DNA of 64,000 nt, taken from assembly GCF_001517585.1 (NCBI RefSeq), contig NZ_FBYC01000001.1, positions 310,001 through 374,000 on the forward strand. The letters run 5' to 3'. Positions 49,913-64,000 of the stretch are shown one piece after another. The stretch's first letter is position 1, and the number at the start of each line of letters is the position of its first letter. Source of the stretch: Roseibaca calidilacus. Lineage in GTDB: Bacteria; Pseudomonadota; Alphaproteobacteria; Rhodobacterales; Rhodobacteraceae. A program made the translations under genes and the position numbers. Under the pieces are notes generated by a model, which had not been told where the DNA came from, did no database searches, and worked only from the letters and a program-made list of their open reading frames with translations.

Positions 49913-50788
49913 ATGGAGATCAAGACAGTCGGCATCGTGGGTGCGGGGCAAATGGGCAGCGGCATTGCGCATGTCTTTGCGCTGTCGGGGCATGATGTGC
50001 TGCTCAGCGACATGTCCGCCGATGCGCTGACAAAGGCCGTTGCGCTGATTGACCGCAACATCGACCGGCAGGTGTCGCGCGGCAAGGTTTCGGCAGAGGA
50101 TAAGGCGGCCGCGATGGCCCGCATCCGCACCACGACCAAGCTGGCCGATCTTGGCCCGACCGACCTGATTATCGAAGCCGCGACCGAACGCGAATCCGTC
50201 AAGGCCGCGATATTCGAAGACCTGCTGCCGCATATCCAGCCGCATACGATCCTGACCTCGAACACCTCGTCCATTTCCATCACGCGGCTTGCCAGCCGCA
50301 CTGACCGGCCGGAAAAGTTCATGGGCCTGCACTTCATGAACCCGGTGCCGGTGATGCAACTGGTAGAGCTGATCCGGGGCATCGCCACGGATGAGCCGAC
50401 CTATAAAACCCTGTTGGGCGTGGTCGAGAAGCTGGGCAAAACGGCGGCGAGTGCAGAGGATTTCCCGGCCTTCATCGTCAACCGCATTCTGGTGCCGATG
50501 ATAAACGAGGCGGTGTATACGCTTTACGAAGGCGTGGGGTCGGTGAAGTCGATTGACGAGTCGCTGAAACTGGGCGCGAACCACCCGATGGGGCCGCTGG
50601 AACTGGCGGATTTCATCGGGCTGGACACCTGCCTTGCCATCATGAACGTGCTGCATGACGGGTTGGCAGATACCAAGTATCGGCCTTGCCCGCTGCTGGT
50701 GAAATATGTCGAAGCGGGCTGGCTGGGGCGCAAGACGCAGCGGGGGTTCTACGACTATCGCGGCGAAACCCCGGTGCCGACCCGTTAA
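49913..50788 (+). CDS. hbd: 3-hydroxybutyryl-CoA dehydrogenase
   Basis: NAD(P)-dependent enzyme of 291 residues. GIVGAGQMGSGIAHVF near residue 7 is the Rossmann loop, SNTSSISIT and FMGLHFMNPVPVM near 110-140 hold the catalytic His, and GFYDY is the standard ending. Works in butyrate, acetoacetyl-CoA or PHB-linked metabolism. Start at 49913 follows CAGGAGCGG; the upstream frame start 49856 is rejected. Confidence 0.93.
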   Translation: MEIKTVGIVGAGQMGSGIAHVFALSGHDVLLSDMSADALTKAVALIDRNIDRQVSRGKVSAEDKAAAMARIRTTTKLADLGPTDLIIEAATERESVKAAIFEDLLPHIQPHTILTSNTSSISITRLASRTDRPEKFMGLHFMNPVPVMQLVELIRGIATDEPTYKTLLGVVEKLGKTAASAEDFPAFIVNRILVPMINEAVYTLYEGVGSVKSIDESLKLGANHPMGPLELADFIGLDTCLAIMNVLHDGLADTKYRPCPLLVKYVEAGWLGRKTQRGFYDYRGETPVPTR

Positions 50789-50793
50789 GGGGG

Positions 50794-51189
50794 TCAATAC
50801 CCCCGTTCAGCCAGCCACGCGCGCATCCATGCGATCTCGCGTTCCTGCGCCTCGATGATCTCGCGCGCAAGGTTTGCGGCGTCGGGGTCTGATCCGTGCT
50901 CCAGCACGATCTGCGCCATGGCGACCGCGCCTTCGTGATGGGGGATCATGCCGCGTATGAAATCGACATCGGCGTCGCCGGTGAAGTCTATCATCATGTC
51001 GGAATGCATGGCGTCATTCGCGGCCATATAGGCGGCGGTCGAGGGGGGCAGATCGGATGTGTCGCCATGGCCCATGGCGCTGTGGTCCATTGTGGAATGG
51101 TCCATATTGCCATGGTTCATCTGGGCATAAGCCACGCCGCCAAGGGTGAGGGCGGTGGCAATGGCGGCGATAAGGGTGGTTTTGGTCAT
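50794..51189 (-). CDS. DUF305 family periplasmic protein, Met/His-rich
   Basis: Exported protein of 131 residues with a signal peptide ([17 protein letters not shown]). Just after cleavage is a Met/His-rich stretch ([21 protein letters not shown], residues about 23-43), then the DUF305 core [32 protein letters not shown] and the Met/His leader are typical of copper-related periplasmic proteins such as CopM. No copper genes are adjacent. Confidence 0.88.
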
Positions 51190-51672
51190 GGGGGTCCTCC
51201 GGTTTGACTGTGTGAATAGCAGGTTCCAGTAGGGGGAAGGAAAGACACGTTGGCGTGAGGCATGGAGAATGTTTCACGTGAAACCTAAGCTATTGAATTT
51301 AAATGTAAATGATTTCTTTGTTGAGCGTGCGGTGGGGCAGGGTGCGTCGCGTCCCGGACGTGATCCGGGGCCTTGCCGCCCGCGCGGGTTGGCCCAGAGG
51401 CCCCGGCTCGGGGGCCGGGGCGTATGGTGCTGGAAGCCCCTGCGCCGTGCAACGTGAGGCACCAAGCGGCGCAAGCGACGTCGCGCGCGGTGGCGCAGCG
51501 CGGGGTGATCTGTGGCGCTTTATGGTGGCCATGTCCGAAAGACGGGGGATCGGCGCGCAGGTGGATGTCAAAGCGCCGCCGCTCGGGGGCGCGTCATGCC
51601 GCAGGCATGCTTTCAGCATGACGCTTGCGCGGCGGGTCTGACGGCCCTTGATTCCGCGCGCGTTGAGCGGTT
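51190..51672. other. 483-base region without a convincing gene
   Basis: Contains a parS site (51270-51285), a short A/T-rich stretch after it (about 51291-51320) and then about 330 bases of very GC-rich sequence. The latter has many short inverted repeats, including GCGTCATGC (51591-51599) with GCATGACGC (51616-51624). A short open frame at 51309-51641 is low in complexity and shows no family. Part may be degenerate intergenic repeats. Confidence 0.5.
51270..51285. promoter_or_regulatory. parS: parS centromere site for ParB
   Basis: TGTTTCACGTGAAACC, 15 of 16 bases identical to the universal parS consensus TGTTTCACGTGAAACA, with a perfect 14-base palindrome GTTTCACGTGAAAC (51271-51284). Lies in a gene-free stretch 80 bases upstream of the DUF305 gene. 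ParB binds here and spreads to organise the origin region. The parAB genes themselves are not in the window. Confidence 0.9.
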
Positions 51673-52266
51673 CTAGTAAGGCGCTTCTTCAGCGATTCTT
51701 TGTGCTATGCTTCGCATTTCTGAAATGATTGACTGACACCTGCCCTGCGTTTTAAGATAGCTCCCAGCTGTTCCAATCCTCTGAGCGCCGATAGAATCTA
51801 AGGCGCGCTTTTTAGACTGACTTGAATCGTGGGCTGCATAGTTGCGCAAAGCTAATAATTTATTCAAAGTATCTTTGTACGATGGATCTTTAAGTACAGT
51901 TGTCAAAAAATTGTTTTCACCAACGAAACGCTTGCACTTGTTGACTATTTCCTTCTGCCCCTTAAAGTCAAAGTAGCCATTTCCAATTATAAGATATTCA
52001 CAAACCTCATCTGTAAGGTTCTTAGGAAATTCAAATCCCTGATAATCTGAAAGCGCACTAGTATTCCTATTGAGACCAGCGATTAAACACTCCAAGAGCA
52101 TTTGCTCAAACTCACGGTATAACTTCATTATCGCATATTCATGCGCCCAACTTATGTGTTTATCACTAGCATTATTTGAGATCGTAAACTCAAGAAATTC
52201 GGTGATTTCAGCGCACTCAGAAATAAAGCGCTCAGCTGGTATTCTCGAACTCTTTTTTTTAGCCAT
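51673..52266 (-). CDS. AT-rich HEPN-like protein of unknown function
   Basis: Protein of 197 residues that I could not name by family. All-helical, charged, with LNKLLALRNYAAHDSSQSKKRALD near residue 135; R141-x4-H146 is the Rx4-6H signature of HEPN ribonucleases (RiboL-PSP or MAE_28990-like type). The 180 bases at 51841-52020 contain only 62 G/C by my count (34 percent), far below the neighbours, so it looks recently acquired. It starts two bases after the parE stop and is on the same strand, so it is probably transcribed with parE. No nucleotidyltransferase-type antitoxin is beside it. Confidence 0.7.
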   Translation of the reverse strand: MAKKKSSRIPAERFISECAEITEFLEFTISNNASDKHISWAHEYAIMKLYREFEQMLLECLIAGLNRNTSALSDYQGFEFPKNLTDEVCEYLIIGNGYFDFKGQKEIVNKCKRFVGENNFLTTVLKDPSYKDTLNKLLALRNYAAHDSSQSKKRALDSIGAQRIGTAGSYLKTQGRCQSIISEMRSIAQRIAEEAPY

Positions 52267-52268
52267 CT

Positions 52269-54218
52269 TTAAACATCCAACTCCTCCACAAACCGCGCGT
52301 TCTCGGAAATATACTGAAACCGCAATTCCGGCTTCTTGCCCATCAGCCGCTCGACAAGGTCCGACGTCTCGCCCGGCAGATCGTCATCCACCGACACGCG
52401 GATCAGGCGGCGTGACGCCGGGTCCATCGTTGTTTCCTTCAAATCCTTCGCGTCCATTTCGCCCAAACCCTTGAAGCGGGACACGTCGATCTTGCCTTTG
52501 CCGCCCAGCCCCTCGGCCAGAAGCCTATCCTTCTCAACCTCGTCCAAAGCGTAAACGCGCTTGGCCCCTTGGGTCAGCCGGAAGAGCGGCGGGCAGGCCA
52601 GATACAGGTGGCCCGCGTCGATCATGGGGCGCATCTGGGTGTAGAAGAAGGTCATCAGCAGCGCCGCGATATGCGCCCCGTCCACATCGGCGTCGGTCAT
52701 GATGATGATCTTGTCATAGCGCAGATCATCTAGCCTGAACTTGTTGCCCAGCCCCACGCCCATGGCCTGACACAGGTCGTTGATCTCGGCATTCGTGGTC
52801 AGCTTGTTCGACGCAGCCCCCAGCACGTTCAGGATTTTGCCGCGCAGGGGCAGCAGCGCTTGGGTTTTGCGGTCGCGGCCCATCTTGGCGGACCCGCCCG
52901 CCGAATCGCCCTCGACAATGAACAGCTCTGTCCCTTCCTTGTTGGTGGCGGAACAATCGACCAGCTTGCCGGGCAGGCGCAGCTTTTTCGTCGCGGTCTT
53001 GCGCGAGGTTTCCTTTTCCTGCCGCCGCCGCAGCCGTTCCTCTGCCCGCAGCACCAGAAAATCAAGGATCGCGCCCGCCGATTTCGGGTCTGCCGCCAGC
53101 CAGTTGTCGAAATGGTCGCGCACCGCGCCTTCGACCATGCGCGCAGCTTCGGTTGTGGCCAGCCGGTCCTTGGTCTGGCCCACGAATTCGGGTTCGCGGA
53201 TAAAGCAGGACACCAGCGCACAGCCGCCCGCCGCCATGTCCTCTCGGGTGATCTGGGCGGCTTTCTTGTTGTTGGCGAGTTCGCCGTAAGCGCGGATGCC
53301 TTTCAGCACCGCCGCCCAGAAGCCCGCCTCATGCGTGCCGCCTTCGGGGGTGGGGACGGTGTTGCAGTAGGATTGCACGAAGCCGTCGCGTGCCGGTGTC
53401 CAGTTGATGGCCCATTCAACGGAACCGGGCTGGTTGAACTTCTCCTGAAAGCTGACCTTGCCGGCGAAGGGTTTGTCGGAATAGGTGACATTGCCGGTAA
53501 GCTGTTCGTTCAGGTAATCGGCCAGCCCGCCGGGGAAGTGGAAGGTCGCTTCCATCGGGGTGTCGCCGTCGGGGATGGCCGATTTCCAGCGGATTTCCAC
53601 GCCGGAAAACAGGTAGGCCTTGGAGCGCACCATGTTCAGCAGCCGCGCGGGGCGGAATTTCAGCGCGCCAAAAATCTCTGCATCCGGGTGGAAGGTGAAG
53701 GTCGTGCCGCGCCGGTTCGGGGCGGGGCCGATCTTGGCCACCGGCCCTTGCGGAATGCCGCGCGAGAAGTCTTGCGCATAAAGCTCTCGATTGCGGGCCA
53801 CTTCCACGCGCAGCCGGTCCGACAGCGCGTTGACCACCGACGCCCCCACGCCGTGCAAGCCGCCCGATGTGGCATAGGCCTTGCCGCTGAACTTGCCGCC
53901 TGCGTGCAGGGTGCAGAGGATCACCTCTAGCGCGGATTTGTCGGGGAATTTCGGGTGCGGGTCGATGGGGATGCCGCGGCCATTGTCGCGGACGGTGATG
54001 GCGTAATCGGCGTGCAGTTCGACTTCGATGCGGTTGGCATGGCCCGCGACGGCTTCGTCCATGGAGTTGTCGAGCACTTCGGCCACCAAATGGTGCAGGG
54101 CGCGTTCATCCGTGCCGCCGATATACATGCCGGGGCGCTTGCGGACGGGTTCCAGCCCTTCCAGCACCTCGATGGACGACGCATCATAGCTGTCGGATTG
54201 CGGCAAAAGGTCGGACAT
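52269..54218 (-). CDS. parE: DNA topoisomerase IV subunit B
   Basis: ATP-driven type II topoisomerase subunit of 649 residues that decatenates chromosomes. The GHKL ATPase domain (VLDNSMDEAVAGHA, DNGRGIPIDPH, SGGLHGVGASVVNALS) is followed by the transducer and the Toprim domain with VEGDSAGGSAKMGRDRKTQALLPLRGKILNV and DADVDGAHI. Being near 650 residues instead of about 800 and reading DSYDASSIEVLEGLEPVRKRPGMYIGGTDE makes it ParE, not GyrB. Confidence 0.94.
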   Translation of the reverse strand: MSDLLPQSDSYDASSIEVLEGLEPVRKRPGMYIGGTDERALHHLVAEVLDNSMDEAVAGHANRIEVELHADYAITVRDNGRGIPIDPHPKFPDKSALEVILCTLHAGGKFSGKAYATSGGLHGVGASVVNALSDRLRVEVARNRELYAQDFSRGIPQGPVAKIGPAPNRRGTTFTFHPDAEIFGALKFRPARLLNMVRSKAYLFSGVEIRWKSAIPDGDTPMEATFHFPGGLADYLNEQLTGNVTYSDKPFAGKVSFQEKFNQPGSVEWAINWTPARDGFVQSYCNTVPTPEGGTHEAGFWAAVLKGIRAYGELANNKKAAQITREDMAAGGCALVSCFIREPEFVGQTKDRLATTEAARMVEGAVRDHFDNWLAADPKSAGAILDFLVLRAEERLRRRQEKETSRKTATKKLRLPGKLVDCSATNKEGTELFIVEGDSAGGSAKMGRDRKTQALLPLRGKILNVLGAASNKLTTNAEINDLCQAMGVGLGNKFRLDDLRYDKIIIMTDADVDGAHIAALLMTFFYTQMRPMIDAGHLYLACPPLFRLTQGAKRVYALDEVEKDRLLAEGLGGKGKIDVSRFKGLGEMDAKDLKETTMDPASRRLIRVSVDDDLPGETSDLVERLMGKKPELRFQYISENARFVEELDV

Positions 54219-54302
54219 GGGCGCGCGATTCCTGATTGGGGGAAGGACACCACCAATAGACCACCGCGCGCGGCAGGGCGCAAGGGATTGCGCCCTGTGT
54301 GG

Positions 54303-55355
54303 TTATAGGGTGAGCCAGACTTGGAACAGAAGCCCGGATGCAAACGCGCCGCCCAGCGAAATCGCGATATACAGCGCAAACACCCGCAGCTTGACCAGCG
54401 CCCAGACCGCTATCGCGGCGGGCAGCGAGGTCACGCCCCCCGCGATCAGGAACGCCATACCTGCGCCGCCCAACATGCCTTGGTCCATCAGCCCACCGAT
54501 CAGGGGCAGTGCCGCGTAACCGTTGAAATAGGCGGGCACGCCAACCAGCGTGGCAATGGCGATGGGGGTCAGGCCCGCGCCGCCCAGGGTCTGGGTCACC
54601 ATCTCGGCCGGGATATAGGCCAACATCAGGCTTTCCAGAAGGAACGCGAGCGACATCCATTTCAGCAGGAACAGGAAGGTGCGCGTGCCCTCCGTGCGGA
54701 ATTTGGTCACGCGCGCGGGGTCGGTCCAGAAGGCCCAGACAGGCGGCTTTGGGTTGCGCGCCTTGGCACCACCGCAGCCGCCATTGCCAATGCCCTCGCG
54801 CAGCGGGTCACTCAGGCCGCCCGCGCGCACGACCAAATGCACCACCGTGCCGCCCAGCACGCCCATGCCCAGCGCGATCAGGGTTTTGGCCACGGCAAAT
54901 TCCAGCCCCAGCACACCCGTGGTCAGCGCGAACATGGACGGGTCCATCAGCGGAGAGGCCAGCCAGAACGCCATGACCGGCGCCAGCGGCACGCCCATGG
55001 CCAGAAAGGCCGCGATCAGCGGGATCACCCCGCAGGAGCAAAAGGGCGACAACCCGCCCGCCAGCGCGCCCATCGCGATCATCATGGCTGGCGCGCCGGT
55101 AAACGCCTTGGCGATCAGGTTATCCGCGCCGGTTGCCCCCGCCCATGCTGCGATCAGGATGGATGCGGCCAGAAACGGGCCGACCGACAGCAGCGACGCC
55201 ACGACCTTGTCGAAGGACGGCGCAAGCTGGCCGGGGTCTAGAAGCGCGATGGCCAGAACGATCAGCGCAAAGGCCAGCCAGACCCGTTCCTTGCGCCAGA
55301 TATAGGCCCATGCGCTGGCAATTGGGCCGGGGCGGGGCAGGGATTGATCGGTCAT
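54303..55355 (-). CDS. Permease of the ArsP/DUF318 family
   Basis: Membrane protein of 350 residues with about eight hydrophobic segments. GALAGGLSPFCSCGVIPLIAAFLAMGVPLAPVMAFWLASPLMDP is the family hallmark with the CSC pair, and GVPAYFNGYAALPLIGGLMDQGM near residue 265 is its second-half counterpart. A long hydrophilic loop is near 185-220. ArsP exports organoarsenicals, and the downstream-divided ArsR-type gene supports a metalloid or organometal substrate. Confidence 0.88.
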   Translation of the reverse strand: MTDQSLPRPGPIASAWAYIWRKERVWLAFALIVLAIALLDPGQLAPSFDKVVASLLSVGPFLAASILIAAWAGATGADNLIAKAFTGAPAMMIAMGALAGGLSPFCSCGVIPLIAAFLAMGVPLAPVMAFWLASPLMDPSMFALTTGVLGLEFAVAKTLIALGMGVLGGTVVHLVVRAGGLSDPLREGIGNGGCGGAKARNPKPPVWAFWTDPARVTKFRTEGTRTFLFLLKWMSLAFLLESLMLAYIPAEMVTQTLGGAGLTPIAIATLVGVPAYFNGYAALPLIGGLMDQGMLGGAGMAFLIAGGVTSLPAAIAVWALVKLRVFALYIAISLGGAFASGLLFQVWLTL

Positions 55356-55396
55356 ATCTACATCTCCAGAAAAGTAGTTATTTAGCGTAAGCCTGT

Positions 55397-55711
55397 TCAG
55401 GCCGCATCGGTTACAGCGGGCAGGCCGGCACAGCAGTCGGTCAGCAAGAAATCGAGCACATGGCGCAGTTCATCGGTGCGGGCAGAGGTGCGCACCTCGC
55501 GGCCATGACGGGTCTGGGCGATCAGCCCGGCATCCTTCAGGCTGCGCAGATGGTGCGCCAGTGTCGAGAGCGGCATATCCAGATGCGCGGCAATTTCGCC
55601 CACCAGCAGCCCATCGGGGCCTGCGCGCACCAACAGGCGGAACACGTTTAGCCGGGCGGCGTGGCCAAGGGCGGCAAGCGCGATGGCGGCAGAATCGGGT
55701 GTAATACTCAT
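55397..55711 (-). CDS. ArsR family repressor with C-terminal Cys pair
   Basis: Regulator of 104 residues: LAALGHAARLNVFRLLVRAG and GEIAAHLDMPLSTLAHHLRSLKDAGLI are the ArsR winged helix. The C-terminus has TDCCAGL, an adjacent cysteine pair like that in the Acidithiobacillus-type arsenite sensor ArsR. The permease starts 42 bases further on, on the same strand. An ATAACCA dyad at 55721 lies upstream of its start. Confidence 0.88.
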   Translation of the reverse strand: MSITPDSAAIALAALGHAARLNVFRLLVRAGPDGLLVGEIAAHLDMPLSTLAHHLRSLKDAGLIAQTRHGREVRTSARTDELRHVLDFLLTDCCAGLPAVTDAA

Positions 55712-55720
55712 GCGTGAAAA

Positions 55721-55740
55721 ATAACCAAAATTCTGGTTAT
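55721..55740. promoter_or_regulatory. Operator dyad of the ArsR/permease cluster
   Basis: Perfect dyad ATAACCA-N6-TGGTTAT (55721-55740), ten bases upstream of the ArsR-type ATG. Suited to autorepression, released by metalloid binding. Confidence 0.65.
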
Positions 55741-55896
55741 GTAAAGGTATTCTTCATGCGTGGCCCGATCGCCCATCGATGCGCAAGAAATGCAAAGAAA
55801 CCCCCGGCCTTTGCGCAAGTTTGCGGCCATTTTGGCATTGACCCGCCCTGCATGGGCGCTTACTTTCCGCCTACGTTAAAGCAACGGATGGCGGCA

Positions 55897-55947
55897 ATGC
55901 GGAACGCACTTGTAATTGTAGTAGGAAACACGCGCATGGGCCGGTAA
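55897..55947 (+). CDS. ilv leader peptide, Leu-Val-Ile-Val-Val
   Basis: Sixteen-codon reading frame, MRNALVIVVGNTRMGR, ending TAA at 55945. The codons CTT GTA ATT GTA GTA make a run of five branched-chain residues, the product classes of the downstream pathway. Leader peptides of this kind are translated to sense charged Leu, Val or Ile tRNA. An ATG three codons earlier (55888) is an equally good start. It is followed by alternative hairpins and a terminator. Confidence 0.75.
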   Translation: MRNALVIVVGNTRMGR

Positions 55948-55974
55948 CGGACTTCCCAAATGGAACCCATGCGC
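55932..55974 (+). promoter_or_regulatory. Candidate antiterminator stem of the ilv attenuator
   Basis: GCGCATGGG (55932-55940) pairs perfectly with CCCATGCGC (55966-55974), with a smaller TTCC/GGAA stem (55953-55965) inside. The left arm falls in the last codons of the leader peptide, so a ribosome there would block it, while stalling at the Val/Ile codons would leave it free. The right arm overlaps the terminator stem by only two bases, so how far it prevents termination is unclear. Confidence 0.5.
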
Positions 55975-55999
55975 CCCCGAGAAGACCGGGGGCTTTTTT
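55973..55999 (+). terminator. ilv attenuator terminator
   Basis: GCCCCC (55973-55978), nine-base loop, GGGGGC (55988-55993), then six T. It is 54 bases upstream of the ilvB start and so would stop transcripts before the gene, which fits an attenuator. Confidence 0.8.
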
Positions 56000-56053
56000 A
56001 TTGCCGCAACCCGCGCTAAAGCGCCTTTGACATGACGGTGGATGGAGCAAGCG

Positions 56054-57808
56054 ATGACACGTCAGATGACCGGAGCCAAGATGGTGATAGAGGCCCTGAA
56101 AGATCAGGGTGTAGAGGTGGTGTTCGGCTATCCGGGTGGCGCGGTTCTGCCCATCTATGATGAGCTGTTCCAGCAAAACGATATTCGTCATATTCTGGTG
56201 CGCCACGAACAGGGGGCCATCCACGCCGCCGAGGGCTATGCGCGCTCTACCGGCAAACCGGGCGTTGTGCTGGTCACATCCGGCCCGGGTGCCACCAACA
56301 CGGTCACAGGCATTGTCGATGCGCTGATGGATTCGATCCCGATTGTGGTTCTGACGGGGCAAGTGCCCACGTTCATGATCGGGTCTGACGCGTTCCAAGA
56401 AGGTGACACCGTTGGCATTACCCGGCCCTGCACCAAGATGAACTGGCTGGTGAAGGAAACTGACAAGCTGGCGGGCACCATCCATGAGGCGTTCCATGTC
56501 GCCACATCGGGCCGCCCCGGCCCGGTGCTGGTGGATATCCCCAAAGACGTGCAGTTTGCCACCGGGGTCTACAAGGAAAAGGCCGAAACGCGCACCGCGC
56601 ATTATGCGCCGCGCACCAAGGGCGACCCCGAGATGATCGCCCGCATGGTCGAGTTGATCGAGACCGCAGAACGCCCGGTATTCTACACCGGCGGCGGGGT
56701 CATCAATTCGGGCGACCGGGCCACGGAACTGTTGCGCGCTTGGGCAGAGGCGACGGGCTTTCCTGTGACCAGCACGCTGATGGGCTTGGGCTGTTACCCC
56801 GCCAGTGGCAAGGCATGGCTGGGGATGCTGGGCATGCACGGCACCTATCAGGCCAATTGGGCGATGCATGATTGCGACCTGATGCTGAACATTGGCGCCC
56901 GGTTTGATGACCGGATCACGGGCCGGATCAACGCGTTCAGCCCCGGCTCGACCAAGGTGCATATCGACATTGACCCATCGTCCTTGAACAAGGTCATTCA
57001 CACGCATGTGCCCATTGTCGGCGACGTGGCAGAGGTGCTGGAAGAGGCGTTTGCATTGTGGAAATCGCGCGGCTCGAAGGTGAACCGCGAGGCGCTGGCC
57101 AAGTGGTGGAAGCAGATCGACGAATGGCGCGCGGTGGATTGCTTGGCCTACAAGCCCGGCGTGAACGCCATTCGCCCGCAACATGCCGTGGCCCGGCTGG
57201 AAGCGCTGACCAAGGGGATGGACCGCTACATCACCACCGAAGTGGGCCAGCACCAGATGTGGGCAGCGCAGTATCTGGGCTTTGAAGGGCCGAACCGCTG
57301 GATGACCTCTGGGGGCCTCGGGACCATGGGCTATGGCGTGCCTGCGTCCATCGGCGTGCAGATTGCGCACCCGGAGGCGTTGGTCATCAACGTGGCGGGC
57401 GAGGCAAGCTGGCTGATGAACATGCAGGAAATGGGCACGGCGGTTCAGTATCGCGCGCCGGTCAAGCAGTTCATCCTGAACAACGAACGTCTGGGCATGG
57501 TGCGCCAGTGGCAGGAACTGCTGCATGGCGAGCGCTATTCAAGTTCCTGGTCCGAAGCCCTGCCCGATTTCGTCAAGCTGGCCGATGCGTTCGGTTGCAA
57601 GGGCATTCGCTGCGACAACGAGGCCGATCTGGATGACGCGATCCGCGAGATGCTGGCCTATGACGGTCCGGTGATCTTTGATTGCATCGTGGAAAAGCAT
57701 GAAAACTGCTTCCCCATGATCCCCTCGGGCAACGCGCATAACGACATGCTGCTGGGCGATGCGGAAACCCAAGGCGTGATCGGCGCCAAGGGCGCGGTTT
57801 TGGTGTAA
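56054..57808 (+). CDS. ilvB: Acetolactate synthase large subunit
   Basis: Thiamine-diphosphate enzyme of 584 residues making acetolactate or acetohydroxybutyrate for valine, leucine and isoleucine. FGYPGGAVLPIYDEL near residue 25 and RHEQGAIHAAEGYARSTG near 48 carry the catalytic Glu; SGPGATNTVTGI and the ThDP-binding GEASWLMNMQEMGTAVQY region near 453 are standard. ATG 56054 with GGAG six bases upstream is preferred over the ATG at 56042. ilvN follows 9 bases after the stop. Confidence 0.97.
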   Translation: MTRQMTGAKMVIEALKDQGVEVVFGYPGGAVLPIYDELFQQNDIRHILVRHEQGAIHAAEGYARSTGKPGVVLVTSGPGATNTVTGIVDALMDSIPIVVLTGQVPTFMIGSDAFQEGDTVGITRPCTKMNWLVKETDKLAGTIHEAFHVATSGRPGPVLVDIPKDVQFATGVYKEKAETRTAHYAPRTKGDPEMIARMVELIETAERPVFYTGGGVINSGDRATELLRAWAEATGFPVTSTLMGLGCYPASGKAWLGMLGMHGTYQANWAMHDCDLMLNIGARFDDRITGRINAFSPGSTKVHIDIDPSSLNKVIHTHVPIVGDVAEVLEEAFALWKSRGSKVNREALAKWWKQIDEWRAVDCLAYKPGVNAIRPQHAVARLEALTKGMDRYITTEVGQHQMWAAQYLGFEGPNRWMTSGGLGTMGYGVPASIGVQIAHPEALVINVAGEASWLMNMQEMGTAVQYRAPVKQFILNNERLGMVRQWQELLHGERYSSSWSEALPDFVKLADAFGCKGIRCDNEADLDDAIREMLAYDGPVIFDCIVEKHENCFPMIPSGNAHNDMLLGDAETQGVIGAKGAVLV

Positions 57809-57817
57809 GGAAAGAAC

Positions 57818-58378
57818 ATGTCCCCCCTCAATATCCAAAAAGGCGCGTCCAAACATAGCGCCTATGACCTGCGCGACCCGAATGCGGATGTAATTGAAAC
57901 GCATACGCTGGCCGTGATTGTCGATAACGAATCCGGCGTGTTGGCGCGGGTGATCGGGCTGTTTTCGGCGCGTGGCTATAACATCGACAGCTTGACCGTG
58001 GCCGAAGTGGACCATCTGGGCCATCTGTCGCGCATCACTGTGGTCACCTCTGGCACGCCGCAGGTGATTGTCCAGATCAAGGCGCAGTTGGAACGTATGG
58101 TGGTTGTGCACCGCGTGCATGACCTGACGCTGGAAGGCCCGAATGTGCAGCGCGAATTGGCGCTGTTCAAGGTCAAGGGCAGCGGCGAGCACCGGATCGA
58201 AGCCCTGCGCCTGGCAGAGATTTTCCGCGCCAATGTGGTGGATTCCACGCTGGAATCCTTCGTGTTCGAAATGACCGGCACGCCGCAAAAGGTCGATGCT
58301 TTTGCCGAACTGATGCAGCCCTTGGGGTTGATCGAAGTGGCGCGCACCGGAGTTGCCGCTATTTCGCGCGGGGTCTGA
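57818..58378 (+). CDS. ilvN: Acetolactate synthase small subunit
   Basis: Regulatory subunit of 186 residues with an ACT domain (HTLAVIVDNESGVLARVIGLFSARGYNIDSLTVA, about residues 28-61) that binds valine, and the C-terminal region RANVVDSTLESFVFEMTG. Good ribosome site AAGGAAAGAAC. Coding for the pair with ilvB. The symbol ilvH would be equally valid. Confidence 0.96.
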   Translation: MSPLNIQKGASKHSAYDLRDPNADVIETHTLAVIVDNESGVLARVIGLFSARGYNIDSLTVAEVDHLGHLSRITVVTSGTPQVIVQIKAQLERMVVVHRVHDLTLEGPNVQRELALFKVKGSGEHRIEALRLAEIFRANVVDSTLESFVFEMTGTPQKVDAFAELMQPLGLIEVARTGVAAISRGV

Positions 58379-58386
58379 CCCACGCA

Positions 58387-58413
58387 AAAGGCCGCCCAAA
58401 CTGGGCGGCCTTT
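58387..58413. terminator. Bidirectional terminator between ilvN and the FKBP gene
   Basis: AAAGGCCGCCCA, three-base loop, TGGGCGGCCTTT: a perfect 12-base stem with short T-runs each way, in the 55-base convergent gap. Confidence 0.85.
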
Positions 58414-58433
58414 GTCACTCCGGGTCTGTGCCC

Positions 58434-58862
58434 TTAGGTGACAGAGACCAATTCAACCGCAAAGGTCAGATCCTTGCCCGCCAGCGGGTGATTGGCGTCC
58501 AGCGTGACGGTGGTGTCAGTCACTTCGGCCACCTGAACCGGAATTTGCCGACCGTCGGGCGTTTGCATGTTCAGCATGGTGCCGGGATCAAGCGGAATAT
58601 CCGCCGGGATCTGGTCGCGCGGCACATCCTGACGCGCTTCGGCCTGATAGTCGCCATAGGCTTCGGTCGCCGGGATGGTGACGGTTTTCTGTTCGCCCGT
58701 GGCCATGCCGTCGATGGCGCGGTCCAGACCGGGAATGATCTGGCCGGACCCGACGATAAATTCCAACGGGTCACGGCCTTCGGAACTGTCAAAAACAGAA
58801 CCGTCTTCCAACGTGCCGGTATAATGAATGCGAACAGTCTTGCCCGCGGTTGCGTGCGTCAT
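58434..58862 (-). CDS. FKBP-type peptidyl-prolyl isomerase (SlyD-like)
   Basis: Protein of 142 residues of the SlyD/FkpB group. VRIHYTGTLEDGSVFDSSEGRDPLEFIVGSGQIIPGLDRAIDGMATGE gives the FKBP half, and the inserted flap domain spans about residues 65-120 (YGDYQAEARQDVPRDQIP). NHPLAGKDLTFAVELVSV is the typical end. Helps folding at prolines. The frame extends beyond ATG 58862 without homology. Confidence 0.93.
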   Translation of the reverse strand: MTHATAGKTVRIHYTGTLEDGSVFDSSEGRDPLEFIVGSGQIIPGLDRAIDGMATGEQKTVTIPATEAYGDYQAEARQDVPRDQIPADIPLDPGTMLNMQTPDGRQIPVQVAEVTDTTVTLDANHPLAGKDLTFAVELVSVT

Positions 58863-59022
58863 GGGGTATCCTTCCAGATGTGGGGAGTGGGTTGGGCGAG
58901 GCGCGCAATCTCGCGCGGTAACTCTGGCCCCAATGCTGCCCGGAGTGTAAACCCCGCCGCTTTTGGGCGCTTGACCCCCCCGTTTCGGCGCGCCATACCC
59001 CCGCCGCGACAAGAGGTGCAAG

Positions 59023-59721
59023 ATGACCGAACAGGCACGCAATTTCTACGGGCGGATCAAGGGCAAGGCCCTGAAACCGGCGCAAAAACGGTATCTGGAC
59101 GAAGATCTGCCGGCACTCGAATTGCATGGCGTCAACCGCGAGGAAAACCCGGACCGCCAGACCGTGGACGCGAAGGGGTTTTTCGCCCAGCCGCGGCCCT
59201 TGTGGCTGGAAATCGGCTTTGGGGGCGGCGAACACCTTGTGTATCAGGCCAAGCGCAACCCCGAGATCGGGATCATTGGCTGCGAGCCTTATTTGAACGG
59301 CGTGGCCATGGCGCTGGGCAAGATCAAGGCGGCAGGGGTGTCGAACCTGCGCCTTTATACATGGGACGTGCGCGACCTGTTCGACGTGCTGCCCGATGCC
59401 TGCCTTGAGCGTGCCTTTCTGCTGTATCCCGACCCATGGCCCAAGGTGCGCCACCACCGCCGCCGCTTCGTGACACCCGACCACCTGCTGCCCTTGGCGC
59501 GGGTGATGGTGCCCGGCGGGATCTTGCGCGTTGCGACGGATATTGTCGACTATGTCCGCCAGACCATGGAAGAAGTGCCCCAAGCCGGGTTCGACTGCCT
59601 GTCACCGGACCCAGAGGAATGGCATATCCCATGGGAAGACTGGGTTTCGACCCGGTATGAGCAAAAAGCACTGCGCGAGGGGCGGCGCCCGCATTACCTG
59701 ACCTTCCGGCGGCAAGGCTAG
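59023..59721 (+). CDS. trmB: tRNA (guanine-N7-)-methyltransferase
   Basis: Makes m7G46 in tRNA. WLEIGFGGGEHLVYQAKRNP near residue 61 is the SAM site, and LLYPDPWPKVRHHRRRFV near 136 is the TrmB signature. Length 232 residues is normal. ATG after AAGAGGTG. Confidence 0.96.
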   Translation: MTEQARNFYGRIKGKALKPAQKRYLDEDLPALELHGVNREENPDRQTVDAKGFFAQPRPLWLEIGFGGGEHLVYQAKRNPEIGIIGCEPYLNGVAMALGKIKAAGVSNLRLYTWDVRDLFDVLPDACLERAFLLYPDPWPKVRHHRRRFVTPDHLLPLARVMVPGGILRVATDIVDYVRQTMEEVPQAGFDCLSPDPEEWHIPWEDWVSTRYEQKALREGRRPHYLTFRRQG

Positions 59722-59777
59722 GGGCGCGCGGCATATCGCGCGAAACCGGGGTTCGGTATTGCGCAACAAGATGTGCG

Positions 59778-60500
59778 CTAGGGGCTTGCCAGTTTGCGCA
59801 TTGCGCCGACAAAAGTAATGCCGTGGTCAAACTGCCCGTAGCGCAGGAATTCCAACACTTCGGCCATCACCACCGGGTTCGACATGATAAAGGTGTGGCT
59901 GGCCGCCAGCACGATATGGTCGGTCATCCCTGCCAGTTTGGTGCTTTCGACCGACACTTTGCCGTCATCCACCCCGTCAATCAGCGCAGAGGTGATGGGG
60001 TTCAGCGACAAATCCCCCGCCACGACACCCAGTTCGTAATCCGGGAAAGCGGGCAACTGGTTGGGGGTTGCGTCTTTTTGCGTGCCCAGTTCCAGCCCGG
60101 CGGGGCCGTTCAGCCATTCGAACGCGTCGATATCGGAAAGTACATCGACCAGTTCAGACCCATGGTTGGGCGGGGCCAGCATGACCACACGGCCCATCTG
60201 CGCGGGCCGGTGGCGGGCCAGCCATCCGCGCGCCAGAATCCCGCCCATGGAATGGGTCACGAAATGCACTGGCGCCGTGCCGCAGGCCGCAACGCTTTCG
60301 CCCACATGGTCCAGCAATTCGGCAATGGGTTTTGCGGTCGAAGGGTAGCCGTGGTTGACCACGGTGTAGCCGTGCAATTTCAGGGTTTCTTCCATGACCA
60401 ACATGGAATTTTCCGTCCGCGCCAGACCGTGCAGCAGCACAACGCAATCGGCCATGGCCGTTCCCGGCAGCAACAGCAGTGACAGGATAATCGCTTTCAT
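59778..60500 (-). CDS. Exported alpha/beta hydrolase, lipase-like
   Basis: Protein of 240 residues with a signal peptide ([15 protein letters not shown]). [14 protein letters not shown] near residue 20 is the oxyanion hole region, [12 protein letters not shown] near 84 holds the nucleophilic Ser, and [12 protein letters not shown] near 200 supplies the probable His. The motif set resembles the LipA/triacylglycerol lipase-like families. Substrate unknown; monocistronic. Confidence 0.88.
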
Positions 60501-60547
60501 TGCGTTTATATAGTAGGGCAGGGCACCGCTTGCCAGAGGACGCCGCC

Positions 60548-60997
60548 ATGACCTTTCCCCGCCTTGCCGTGCGCGCGCTGATTGTTCACGCGGGCCGGTT
60601 GCTGATTGTCAACGCATGGCCCGACGGCAAGAGCGACCTGTGGTGCGCGCCCGGTGGCGGGGTTGTGCGGGGCGCGTCGCTGCCCGACAACCTGAAGCGC
60701 GAGCTCTATGAGGAATGCGGGTTGCAGATTGCCGTGGGCGCGCCCTGCCTTGTGAACGAATTTCACGACCCGAAGGGCAGCTTTCATCAGGTCGACATCT
60801 ATTTTTACGCGCGCATCACCGGCGGGCAGATCGACCCGGCATGGTCCGACCCCGAAGGCGTGGTGACACAGCGCCGTTTCGTGACCGAAGCGGAACTGCG
60901 GGCCTTGCGCTTCAAGCCCGACAGCCTGCCCGACCTGGCCTTTCATGGCGGGCAGATGGCCGCGTTTTATGACCCTTTGGAACCGATCGTTCTGTAG
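60548..60997 (+). CDS. Nudix hydrolase
   Basis: Protein of 149 residues with a Nudix box [24 protein letters not shown] near residue 38 and the rest of the fold intact. The start [13 protein letters not shown] at 60548 is preferred over 60500, which lies opposite the lipase start. Substrate unknown. Confidence 0.88.
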
Positions 60998-61093
60998 GCG
61001 GCGCGCGGCGGGGTGCATTGACATTCCCCCCTTGCGTCTCACATGTAAGCGCGCATCACCGGGGTAATCCCGCAAGACAGATTTGAGGAATTC

Positions 61094-63706
61094 ATGGCCG
61101 TTGTCGTCGTCGAATCGCCTGCCAAGGCCAAGACAATCAACAAATATCTGGGCGCGGGCCATACGGTTCTGGCATCTTACGGGCATGTGCGCGACTTGCC
61201 GCCCAAGGATGGATCGGTCGACACGGATCATGATTTCGACATGAAATGGGAGGTGGCGAGCGATTCGCGCAAGCACCTGAAAGCCATTGCCGACGCGCTG
61301 AAAACCGATAACGAACTGATCCTTGCGACCGACCCCGACCGCGAGGGAGAGGCGATTTCGTGGCATCTGACCGAAGCGCTGACCAAGTCGCGCGCGTTGA
61401 AAAAGGACACGCCGGTCAAGCGCGTGGTGTTCAACGCCATCACCAAATCTGCGGTGACAGAGGCGATGAAAAACCCCCGCGACGTGGATATGCCGCTGGT
61501 GCGGGCCTATCTGGCGCGGCGGGCTTTGGATTACCTTGTGGGGTTCAACCTGTCGCCCGTGCTGTGGCGCAAACTGCCCGGCGCGAAATCGGCAGGGCGC
61601 GTGCAATCGGTCTGCCTGCGGCTGATCGTCGAGCGCGAGATGGAGATCGAGGCCTTCAACGCGCAGGAATACTGGACGGTCGAGGCCGAGTTGGCGACCC
61701 CGCGCGGCGTGCAGTTCAACGCCAAGCTGGTCAGCCTTGCGGGCAAGAAGCTGGACAAGTTCGATCTGGCCAATGCCACGCAGGCGGAAATGGCGGTTCA
61801 GGCAGTCACGTCGCGCGATCTGACGGTCACCTCTGTCGAAGCCAAACCGGCTAGCCGCAACCCGTCCGCGCCCTTTATGACCAGCACTTTGCAGCAGGAA
61901 GCCAGCCGCAAATTCGGCATGGGTGCCAAACACTGCATGAGCACGGCACAACGTCTGTATGAGGCGGGCTACATTACCTATATGCGGACCGACGGGATCG
62001 ACATGGCGCCCGAAGCCGTGATGGCGGCGCGCGATGTCATCAAGGACCGTTACGGGGCCGATTATGTCCCGAAATCGCCCCGCATGTATAAAAACAAGGC
62101 CAAGAACGCGCAGGAAGCGCATGAATGCATTCGTCCCACGGATATGGCCGTCAGCCCCGACAAGCTGCGCCTGTCCGACAGCGACCAGCGCAAGCTCTAT
62201 GACCTGATCTGGAAGCGCACCATCGCGGGCCAGATGGAAGCCGCGCGGCTGGAGCGCACGACCGTCGAAATCGGGTCCAAGGATGGGCAGGTCGGCCTGC
62301 GCGCCACAGGGCAGGTGGTGCTGTTCGACGGGTTCCTGAAGGTCTACGAGGAAGGCCGCGATGACGTGGTCGATGACGACGACAAGCGCCTGCCGCAAAT
62401 GGCCGAAGGCGACGCGATGGACAAGCGCGCCATCACGCCAGAGCAGCATTTCACCCAGCCGCCCCCGCGTTATACTGAAGCGACCTTGGTCAAGCGCATG
62501 GAAGAATTGGGCATTGGCCGCCCGTCCACCTATGCCAGCATTGTCACGACCATTCAGGACCGGGGCTATGTCATCAAGGACAAGAACCGCCTTATGCCAG
62601 AGGACAAGGGCCGCTTGGTCACGATCTTTCTGGTCAATTATTTCCGTCGCTATCTGGAATATGATTTCACCGCAGCCCTTGAAGGGCAGTTGGACGATAT
62701 CTCGGCGGGTCAAGCCGACTACAAAGAGGTATTGGACCGGTTCTGGCGTGACTTCTCGGCGGCGATTGCGGAAACCTCGGAACTGCGCATCACGGAAGTG
62801 CTGGAGAAGATCGACGAGGTTCTGGCCCCCCAGCTTTATCCCCCGCGCGAGGATGGCAGCGATCCGCGCATCTGCCCCAAATGCCGCGAGGGCCGTCTGC
62901 ACCTGAAAACCGCGCGGTCCGGTGGCGCGTTCATCGGGTGCGGCAATTACCCCGAATGCCGCTTTACCCGCCCCATCGGCGTTGTGGACGAGGCGCAGGC
63001 CGAACTGTCGGGCGATGGCAAGTTGCTGGGCCATGATGCGGGCAGCCCCATCAGCCTGCGCACCGGGCGTTTCGGCCCCTATGTGCAGCGCGGAGAGGCC
63101 ACCAAGGAAGACCCCAAACCGCCCCGCGCCTCTGTGCCCAAGGGGTGGGACGTGGACAGCATGGACCTTGAGAAGGCGCTGATGCTGTTATCCTTGCCGC
63201 GCGCGGTCGGCCCGCACCCGGAAGATGGCGTGATGGTCTGGGCCAATATCGGGCGCTATGGCCCGTATCTGAAACATGCCGAAACCACGTCGGATCGGGG
63301 TGGCACCAACGCCAACCTTGACAGCATTGATGAGGTCTGGACCGTCGGGATGAACCGCGCCGTGCAGCTTCTGGCCGAAAAGGTTGCCAGCCGTGGCGGG
63401 CGTGGTCAGGCCGCGGCGCCGCTGCGGTCCTTGGGCGCGCATCCCGCAGATGGCGAAGCCGTGGATGTGATGAAGGGCAAATACGGTCCCTATGTGAAAT
63501 GGGGCAAGATCAACGCGACCTTGCCGGACACGTTAACACCCGAAGCCGTGACCATGGATCAGGCGGTCGAATTGCTGGATGCCAAGGCCGCGACCAAAGG
63601 CAAGAAGAAGGCCCCGGCCAAGAAGGGCACCAGCAAGAAAACTGCCGCCAAAAAGCCGGCAGCCAAAAAGCCAGTTGCCAAGGCGAAGCCAAAATCAGAA
63701 GAATAA
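61094..63706 (+). CDS. topA: DNA topoisomerase I
   Basis: Type IA topoisomerase of 870 residues relaxing negative supercoils. Toprim motif VVESPAKAKTINKYLG at the N-terminus and ATDPDREGEAISWHL near 76, catalytic Tyr in YITYMRTDG near residue 296, and one zinc finger CPKCREGRLHLKTARSGGAFIGCGNYPECRF near 596-626. The C-terminal TOPRIM-like repeats follow and the last 40 residues are a Lys/Ala tail, which likely binds DNA. Confidence 0.97.
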   Translation: MAVVVVESPAKAKTINKYLGAGHTVLASYGHVRDLPPKDGSVDTDHDFDMKWEVASDSRKHLKAIADALKTDNELILATDPDREGEAISWHLTEALTKSRALKKDTPVKRVVFNAITKSAVTEAMKNPRDVDMPLVRAYLARRALDYLVGFNLSPVLWRKLPGAKSAGRVQSVCLRLIVEREMEIEAFNAQEYWTVEAELATPRGVQFNAKLVSLAGKKLDKFDLANATQAEMAVQAVTSRDLTVTSVEAKPASRNPSAPFMTSTLQQEASRKFGMGAKHCMSTAQRLYEAGYITYMRTDGIDMAPEAVMAARDVIKDRYGADYVPKSPRMYKNKAKNAQEAHECIRPTDMAVSPDKLRLSDSDQRKLYDLIWKRTIAGQMEAARLERTTVEIGSKDGQVGLRATGQVVLFDGFLKVYEEGRDDVVDDDDKRLPQMAEGDAMDKRAITPEQHFTQPPPRYTEATLVKRMEELGIGRPSTYASIVTTIQDRGYVIKDKNRLMPEDKGRLVTIFLVNYFRRYLEYDFTAALEGQLDDISAGQADYKEVLDRFWRDFSAAIAETSELRITEVLEKIDEVLAPQLYPPREDGSDPRICPKCREGRLHLKTARSGGAFIGCGNYPECRFTRPIGVVDEAQAELSGDGKLLGHDAGSPISLRTGRFGPYVQRGEATKEDPKPPRASVPKGWDVDSMDLEKALMLLSLPRAVGPHPEDGVMVWANIGRYGPYLKHAETTSDRGGTNANLDSIDEVWTVGMNRAVQLLAEKVASRGGRGQAAAPLRSLGAHPADGEAVDVMKGKYGPYVKWGKINATLPDTLTPEAVTMDQAVELLDAKAATKGKKKAPAKKGTSKKTAAKKPAAKKPVAKAKPKSEE

Positions 63707-63809
63707 AAGTTGATGTTTATGCTTGGCGCGACATGTGTCAGGCGTCACGATATTGACTCTGTGGTTCCCTCGGGCCACTGATATGGAAACAAATTCAGGG
63801 GCAAATGTC

Positions 63810-64000
63810 ATGCAAAAGATTTTCGGTTCCGCTGCCGAGGCTCTGGATGGACTTCTGTTTGACGGCATGACGATCGCCGCAGGCGGCTTTGGGTTGTGCG
63901 GCATTCCCGAATTGCTGATCGCCGCAATCCGCGAGGTCGGGACCAAGGATCTGACCATCGCGTCCAACAACGCAGGTGTGGACGGCTTCGGGTTGGGCAT
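63810..64000 (+). CDS. scoA: 3-oxoacid CoA-transferase subunit A, partial at window end
   Basis: Only the first 63 residues are present. MQKIFGSAAEALDGLLFDGMTIAAGGFGLCGIPELLIAAIREVG is the family I CoA-transferase alpha-subunit opening, including the glycine-rich GGFGLCGIPE. AGGGG at 63796 precedes ATG 63810; an in-frame ATG at 63783 is possible. It would transfer CoA from succinyl-CoA to acetoacetate. The gene runs off the window. Confidence 0.9.
   Translation, partial: MQKIFGSAAEALDGLLFDGMTIAAGGFGLCGIPELLIAAIREVGTKDLTIASNNAGVDGFGLG

Follow-up and report, generated by a model that had tools for sequence, protein, structure and literature searches.

A 64,000-nucleotide (nt) stretch of the 3.35 Mb genome of the alphaproteobacterium Roseibaca calidilacus (contig NZ_FBYC01000001.1, positions 310,001 to 374,000; hereafter the window) carries the acetolactate synthase genes ilvB and ilvN, preceded by a short leader open reading frame (ORF), a set of stems and an intrinsic terminator that together form a candidate attenuator (Table 1). 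The leader ORF, read directly from the sequence, extends from an ATG at 55897 to a TAA at 55945-55947, an in-frame ATG at 55888 being an alternative start that would give 19 codons, and it contains a run of Leu-Val-Ile-Val-Val, referred to below as the sensor codons. A perfect 9-bp helix (P1) follows and encloses two small hairpins, of which P2, nested inside it, carries the stop codon of the leader in its loop. The terminator consists of a 7-bp G+C stem with a 7-nt loop (55973-55993) and the run TTTTTT (55994-55999), which ends 54 nt before the ATG of ilvB at 56054, another in-frame ATG at 56042 being also possible. A preliminary description of this DNA had reported the 16-codon frame with its branched-chain run, the perfect stem, the strong terminator and the 54-base distance to ilvB, and all of them were found as described. 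It had placed the end of the frame just before the stem; frame and stem do exist, but the frame ends inside the stem, so that its last codons constitute the 5' arm of P1. The two bases that it considered common to the two stems are exactly 55973-55974.

Table 1. Features of the ilvBN leader region, with positions in the window, and loci of related leaders elsewhere
Feature	Position or loci	Strand	Basis
Likely sigma-70-type promoter (TTGACC, 17-nt spacer, TACTTT)	55838-55866	+	matching boxes upstream of relatives' leaders
Leader ORF, 16 codons MRNALVIVVGNTRMGR + TAA	55897-55947	+	homologous same-frame leader in 90 relatives
Sensor codons CTT GTA ATT GTA GTA (Leu-Val-Ile-Val-Val)	55909-55923	+	Ile/Leu/Val conservation and GTA/CTA enrichment in relatives
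P1 5' arm GCGCATGGG, putative antiterminator, within last leader codons	55932-55940	+	covariation with 3' arm; fold
P2 hairpin CCG-GUAA-CGG, stop codon in loop	55941-55950	+	two-sided changes at all 3 pairs; predicted fold
P3, UUCC/GGAA hairpin within P1, small and variable	55953-55965	+	predicted fold only
P1 3' arm CCCATGCGC	55966-55974	+	covariation; last 2 bases common to terminator
Intrinsic terminator GCCCCCG-AGAAGAC-CGGGGGC + T6	55973-55999	+	two-sided changes at 5/7 pairs in relatives
ilvB, acetolactate synthase large subunit	56054-57808	+	Pfam TPP_enzyme N, M, C; orthologue in 120/120 family genomes
ilvN, acetolactate synthase small subunit	57818-58378	+	Pfam ALS_ss_C and ACT domains
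MFS-type leader loci	L154-L166, L247-L249, L252, L256, L257, L259-L262, L265, L268, L269, L272, L273, L278, L281, L289, L297		upstream of MFS gene
Atu_C8 loci	L002, L143-L147, L239-L242, L244-L246, L277, L280, L282, L291, L296, L299, L301, L305, L318

The features expected of an attenuator, namely a short translatable leader ORF, codons for the end products within it and an intrinsic terminator between the leader and ilvB, are all present at the locus. To compare their co-occurrence with chance, the stretch 55860-56040 was shuffled 20,000 times with its dinucleotides preserved. Five consecutive Ile/Leu/Val codons within a short ORF arose 27 times, inverted repeats of 9 bp arose 518 times and a comparable terminator 12 times, while the leader codons, helix and terminator never appeared together. 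The predicted fold includes P1, P2, P3 and the terminator, with a z-score of -1.4 which is by itself no proof. The sensor codons pair only locally in this fold, which contains no enterobacterial-type protector (1:2) hairpin holding them, and the 5' arm of P1 lies 3' of them.

Comparison with relatives strongly supports attenuation. All 120 genomes sampled from the Rhodobacteraceae have an IlvB orthologue, and we read the upstream DNA at 110 loci; at 105 of these a script detected the combination of leader ORF, helix and terminator, a few cases being weak. The frame relative to P1 is identical in 90 leaders, where the five sensor codons stand at a fixed distance from P1 and encode Ile, Leu or Val in 94, 100, 96, 92 and 91% of cases, against 2-19% for the codons flanking the run. 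Entropy is low at the second positions of the sensor codons and high at the third ones. Since second positions are near-invariant and third positions strongly variable, the pattern points to selection on the translated product and not on the RNA letters. GTA makes up 54% of the core Val codons (1.8% in the genes of the window and 3.4% in 30 ilvB genes) and CTA 35.5% of the core Leu codons (1.2-1.5% in genes); attenuators are known for a biased choice of regulatory codons, rare ones being used in some operons (PMC1183508). A Shine-Dalgarno-like motif lies 5' of 88 of the 105 leaders, and the RMGR end of the leader peptide is strongly conserved. Four of the five loci devoid of such a leader also lack the terminator.

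The stems were analysed in an alignment of 91 leaders aligned by sequence only. P1 and P2 taken together show 92% paired cells and six pairs with two-sided changes, and their covariation score exceeded that of all 500 shuffles; the terminator shows 99.8% paired cells and five pairs with two-sided changes, and likewise exceeded all 500 shuffles. These controls leave shared ancestry in. Some divergent leaders possess an entirely different P1, such as GCGCAGTCGC/GCGACTGCGC in L087. Sequence comparison shows that the leader ORF with its five sensor codons, the terminator, P1 and the hairpin around the stop codon are conserved, with covarying stems, and that the codon pattern, the rare-codon bias and the covariation are maintained in about 90 genera. 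The switch is present in almost all of the family as sampled. The preliminary description had proposed to look in such an alignment for conserved Val, Ile and Leu codons and for compensatory changes, and both were obtained. Its proposal of ribosome-mediated attenuation sensing branched-chain codons is likewise supported by sequence comparison, and we hold it very probable, at about 0.9, that transcription of ilvBN is controlled here by ribosome-mediated attenuation.

The small overlap of the two stems is a family-wide trait, amounting to 1-4 nt in 92 of the 105 leaders, yet it falls on the basal pairs of the terminator, so that it could be workable. These basal pairs are worth a median of -5.5 kcal/mol without P1 and -0.4 kcal/mol with P1, the leader in the window giving the same two values; P1 cancels their energy and would therefore take away the drive to complete the terminator stem. 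The effect of translation was calculated with a ribosome-mask model, which gives equilibrium values and assumes that the ribosome reaches 12 nt beyond the first nucleotide of the codon in its A site. For the leader in the window, the probability of P1 is 1.0 with the A site on any of the first four sensor codons (Leu, Val, Ile, Val) and 0 with the ribosome at the stop codon, and that of the basal terminator pairs goes from 0.53 with the ribosome on the sensor codons to 0.99 at the stop codon. In this model, with kinetics assumed, P1 behaves as an alternative helix that cannot coexist with the full terminator and whose formation depends on where the ribosome stands.

These elements allow a concrete account of ilvBN control to be proposed for the source genome. 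With plentiful charged Val-, Leu- and Ile-tRNA, the ribosome would reach the stop codon and mask the 5' arm of P1, the terminator would be completed and transcription would end before ilvB. With scarce charged tRNA, the ribosome would stall on the sensor codons, its downstream edge clearing P1, which would form first and occupy the basal nucleotides of the terminator 5' arm, and the RNA polymerase would read through. We infer that, as the RNA is made, P1 folds ahead of the terminator, and that this order is enough for read-through. With no separate protector hairpin, the leader seems to have two states only, and an untranslated leader is therefore predicted to give read-through and not super-attenuation, unlike in the trp operon. 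The preliminary description had suspected, from the two-base overlap, that the switching may differ from the enterobacterial version; its remark on the overlap is correct.

Related leaders were searched in 387 alphaproteobacterial genomes with a covariance model (R1) built from the family leaders. Within the family it recovered the ilvB site, and outside it the stronger matches lie upstream of a gene of the major facilitator superfamily (MFS), as do the matches of the Rfam family Atu_C8. In the source genome R1 has a single match, at the ilvB site, and no further copies; the MFS homologue of this genome (L217) has no leader. In a search of named genomes, R1 matched upstream of 34 of 80 MFS relatives, including those of Rhizobium, Mesorhizobium, Devosia, Kiloniellaceae and three Burkholderia species. 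The MFS protein is of the Bcr/CflA efflux type; four of the five tested scored above the cut-off of TIGR00710. Homologous leaders, combining a Val-rich peptide, P1, the stop hairpin and a terminator, precede Bcr/CflA-type genes in many alphaproteobacterial families and in the three Burkholderia species. The comparison suggests that many bacteria carry a Val-rich leader before a transporter of the drug-efflux type, an arrangement by which stress in translation or in amino-acid supply would be coupled to this transporter. Other alphaproteobacterial ilvB regions read outside the family mostly lack a leader; three, at L198, L202 and L204, have divergent ones encoding MSLLIVPCAPNEGLA, MSKILVPRAPFLGRT and MNRTLVLIPWSLSEWS, each followed by a stop codon.

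Atu_C8 (RF02502), listed in Rfam only as a small RNA (sRNA) of Rhizobiales, matches 55899-56009 with 30.6 bits, below its gathering score of 50. Its loci encode a short peptide, for instance MNTALVLVVVGRRMGRMV followed by a stop codon, upstream of a Bcr/CflA-type MFS gene, and the comparison suggests that this “sRNA” is an attenuator-like leader. A link of Atu_C8 with the ilvB leader or with MFS genes was not found in the literature searched, and may still have been published. The mask model gave no switch in eight of nine Atu_C8-class leaders tested, in which P1 and terminator are spaced by 8-10 nt; this class, like 13 ilvB leaders whose stems do not overlap, either switches differently or does not switch. 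In the MFS class, the 3' arm of P1 (counterpart of 55966-55974) is more conserved than its partner, chiefly at TGCG, and the motif T-3G-2Y-1G+1 is found in the P1 3' arm of 88 of 91 leaders, with a weak G at -10 or -11 (64/91). TGCG resembles the downstream part of a polymerase pause consensus, a fit that is not a proof. On a wider view, a Val/Ile/Leu leader, P1 with its nested stop-codon hairpin and a terminator would make up a portable module of Alphaproteobacteria, of which the ilvBN leader is one member; the module would also govern Bcr/CflA MFS transporters and would have arrived in Burkholderia, P1 controlling termination in at least part of the family through the RNA polymerase, by pausing or antitermination, without shared bases. 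Taken as a whole, we regard this view as unlikely.

Several observations weigh against attenuation by competing stems. The overlap of two bases brings the equilibrium probability of the basal terminator pairs down to no less than about 0.5, a weak switch that calls for a kinetic argument; the mask model moreover has the overlap already released by a stall on the last Val codon. The 13 divergent ilvB leaders mentioned above lack the overlap by a perfect-helix test, as does the homologous Atu_C8 class. Finally, relatives keeping the terminator without the leader codons, named in the preliminary description as contrary evidence, are very rare and amount to one locus, L072, where the terminator follows a degenerate leader. 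In a rival reading, attenuation is real but the P1/P2/P3 junction acts on the RNA polymerase or, through where it lies, hampers the terminator, as in the put or EAR antiterminator RNAs, the ribosome controlling only the formation of the junction. The spacing of P1 and terminator by 3-10 nt in some homologous leaders speaks for it, as does a conservation of the P1 3' arm, chiefly TGCG, beyond the needs of pairing (the MFS class keeps the T in 28 of 32 cases and the partner A in 16 of 32). This conservation may, however, correspond to a polymerase pause element instead, and in 92 of the 105 ilvB leaders the overlap falls exactly on the basal pairs of the terminator, a place at which competition can take effect. 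We judge this rival reading improbable.

A low probability is also given to an additional role of the terminated leader RNA or of its peptide in trans, for which Sinorhizobium offers a precedent in its trp attenuator RNA, rnTrpL, and peptide, peTrpL (PMC10117765). The entry of the homologous Atu_C8 in Rfam as an sRNA and the conserved RMGR end could be understood in this way, but this end overlaps P1, which can account for its conservation, the well-scoring copies examined directly precede ilvB or an MFS gene, and a target was not identified. An intergenic terminator alone is a common occurrence, and it could belong to an unrelated upstream transcript or to a free-standing sRNA, with leader codons present by chance; the upstream neighbours are nevertheless on the other strand, the combination of features was never reproduced by shuffling, and relatives keep the codon pattern, the bias to rare codons and the covariation, which makes this explanation very improbable. 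In other bacteria, ilv genes are under the control of ppGpp riboswitches (PMC8632094, PMC10272879). Control of ilvB by such a riboswitch, or by one for another metabolite, appears extremely improbable here, as conservation tracks the codons, no separate aptamer-like domain was seen, and no Rfam riboswitch family matched in 50000-64000 at E up to 1, the sole match being Atu_C8.

The genes adjoining the leader on its upstream side are encoded on the opposite strand; an ArsR-type helix-turn-helix regulator lies there beside an ArsP_1-family permease (54303-55711, - strand), divergent from ilvBN. Transcription of the leader is expected to start near 55873, from a likely promoter that a simple promoter scan did not list. 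A TTGAY box and a -10-like hexamer with a spacing of 16-18 nt occur at a near-constant distance upstream of 103 of the 105 relatives' leaders, the -10 being mostly 59-64 nt 5' of the Arg codon. The spacer of the proposed promoter holds an inverted repeat, CGCCC-TGCAT-GGGCG (55844-55858), which might serve as an operator; in the relatives shown, the spacer differs in sequence.

That ilvBN is subject to attenuation in Alphaproteobacteria is known from earlier literature, and the element described here is a further case of a known type of switch. In Caulobacter crescentus, ilvBN (ilvIH) is reported to be attenuated via Ile and Val codons (PMC4117421, citing Tarleton et al. 1994); as described in that source, it resembles the present element in its alphaproteobacterial host and in a leader ORF whose tandem Ile/Val codons precede a Rho-independent terminator and then the operon for acetolactate synthase. 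Leader peptides of alphaproteobacterial ilvB were referred to in 2005 as previously described (PMC1273637, citing Vitreschak et al. 2004) and, as far as this citation goes, match in kind of element, gene and bacterial class. The attenuator of Corynebacterium ilvB-II / ilvBNC also comprises an upstream ORF, 15-17 codons long and with many codons for Ile, Leu and Val, and an intrinsic terminator before ilvB (PMC10272879), but in another lineage and with other stems. Atu_C8 resembles the ilvB leader in the sequence of P1 and in the order of its parts (leader peptide ...VVVGxRMGR.., P1, terminator), whereas the members examined precede an MFS transporter, separate P1 from the terminator by 8-10 nt and are annotated only as sRNA. 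As in the enterobacterial trp and ilv attenuators, the position of the ribosome on the sensor codons would decide the fate of the terminator; these attenuators, however, employ a 1:2 pause/protector hairpin and a 2:3 antiterminator, while the present leader displays only P1 and a terminator overlapping by 2 nt.
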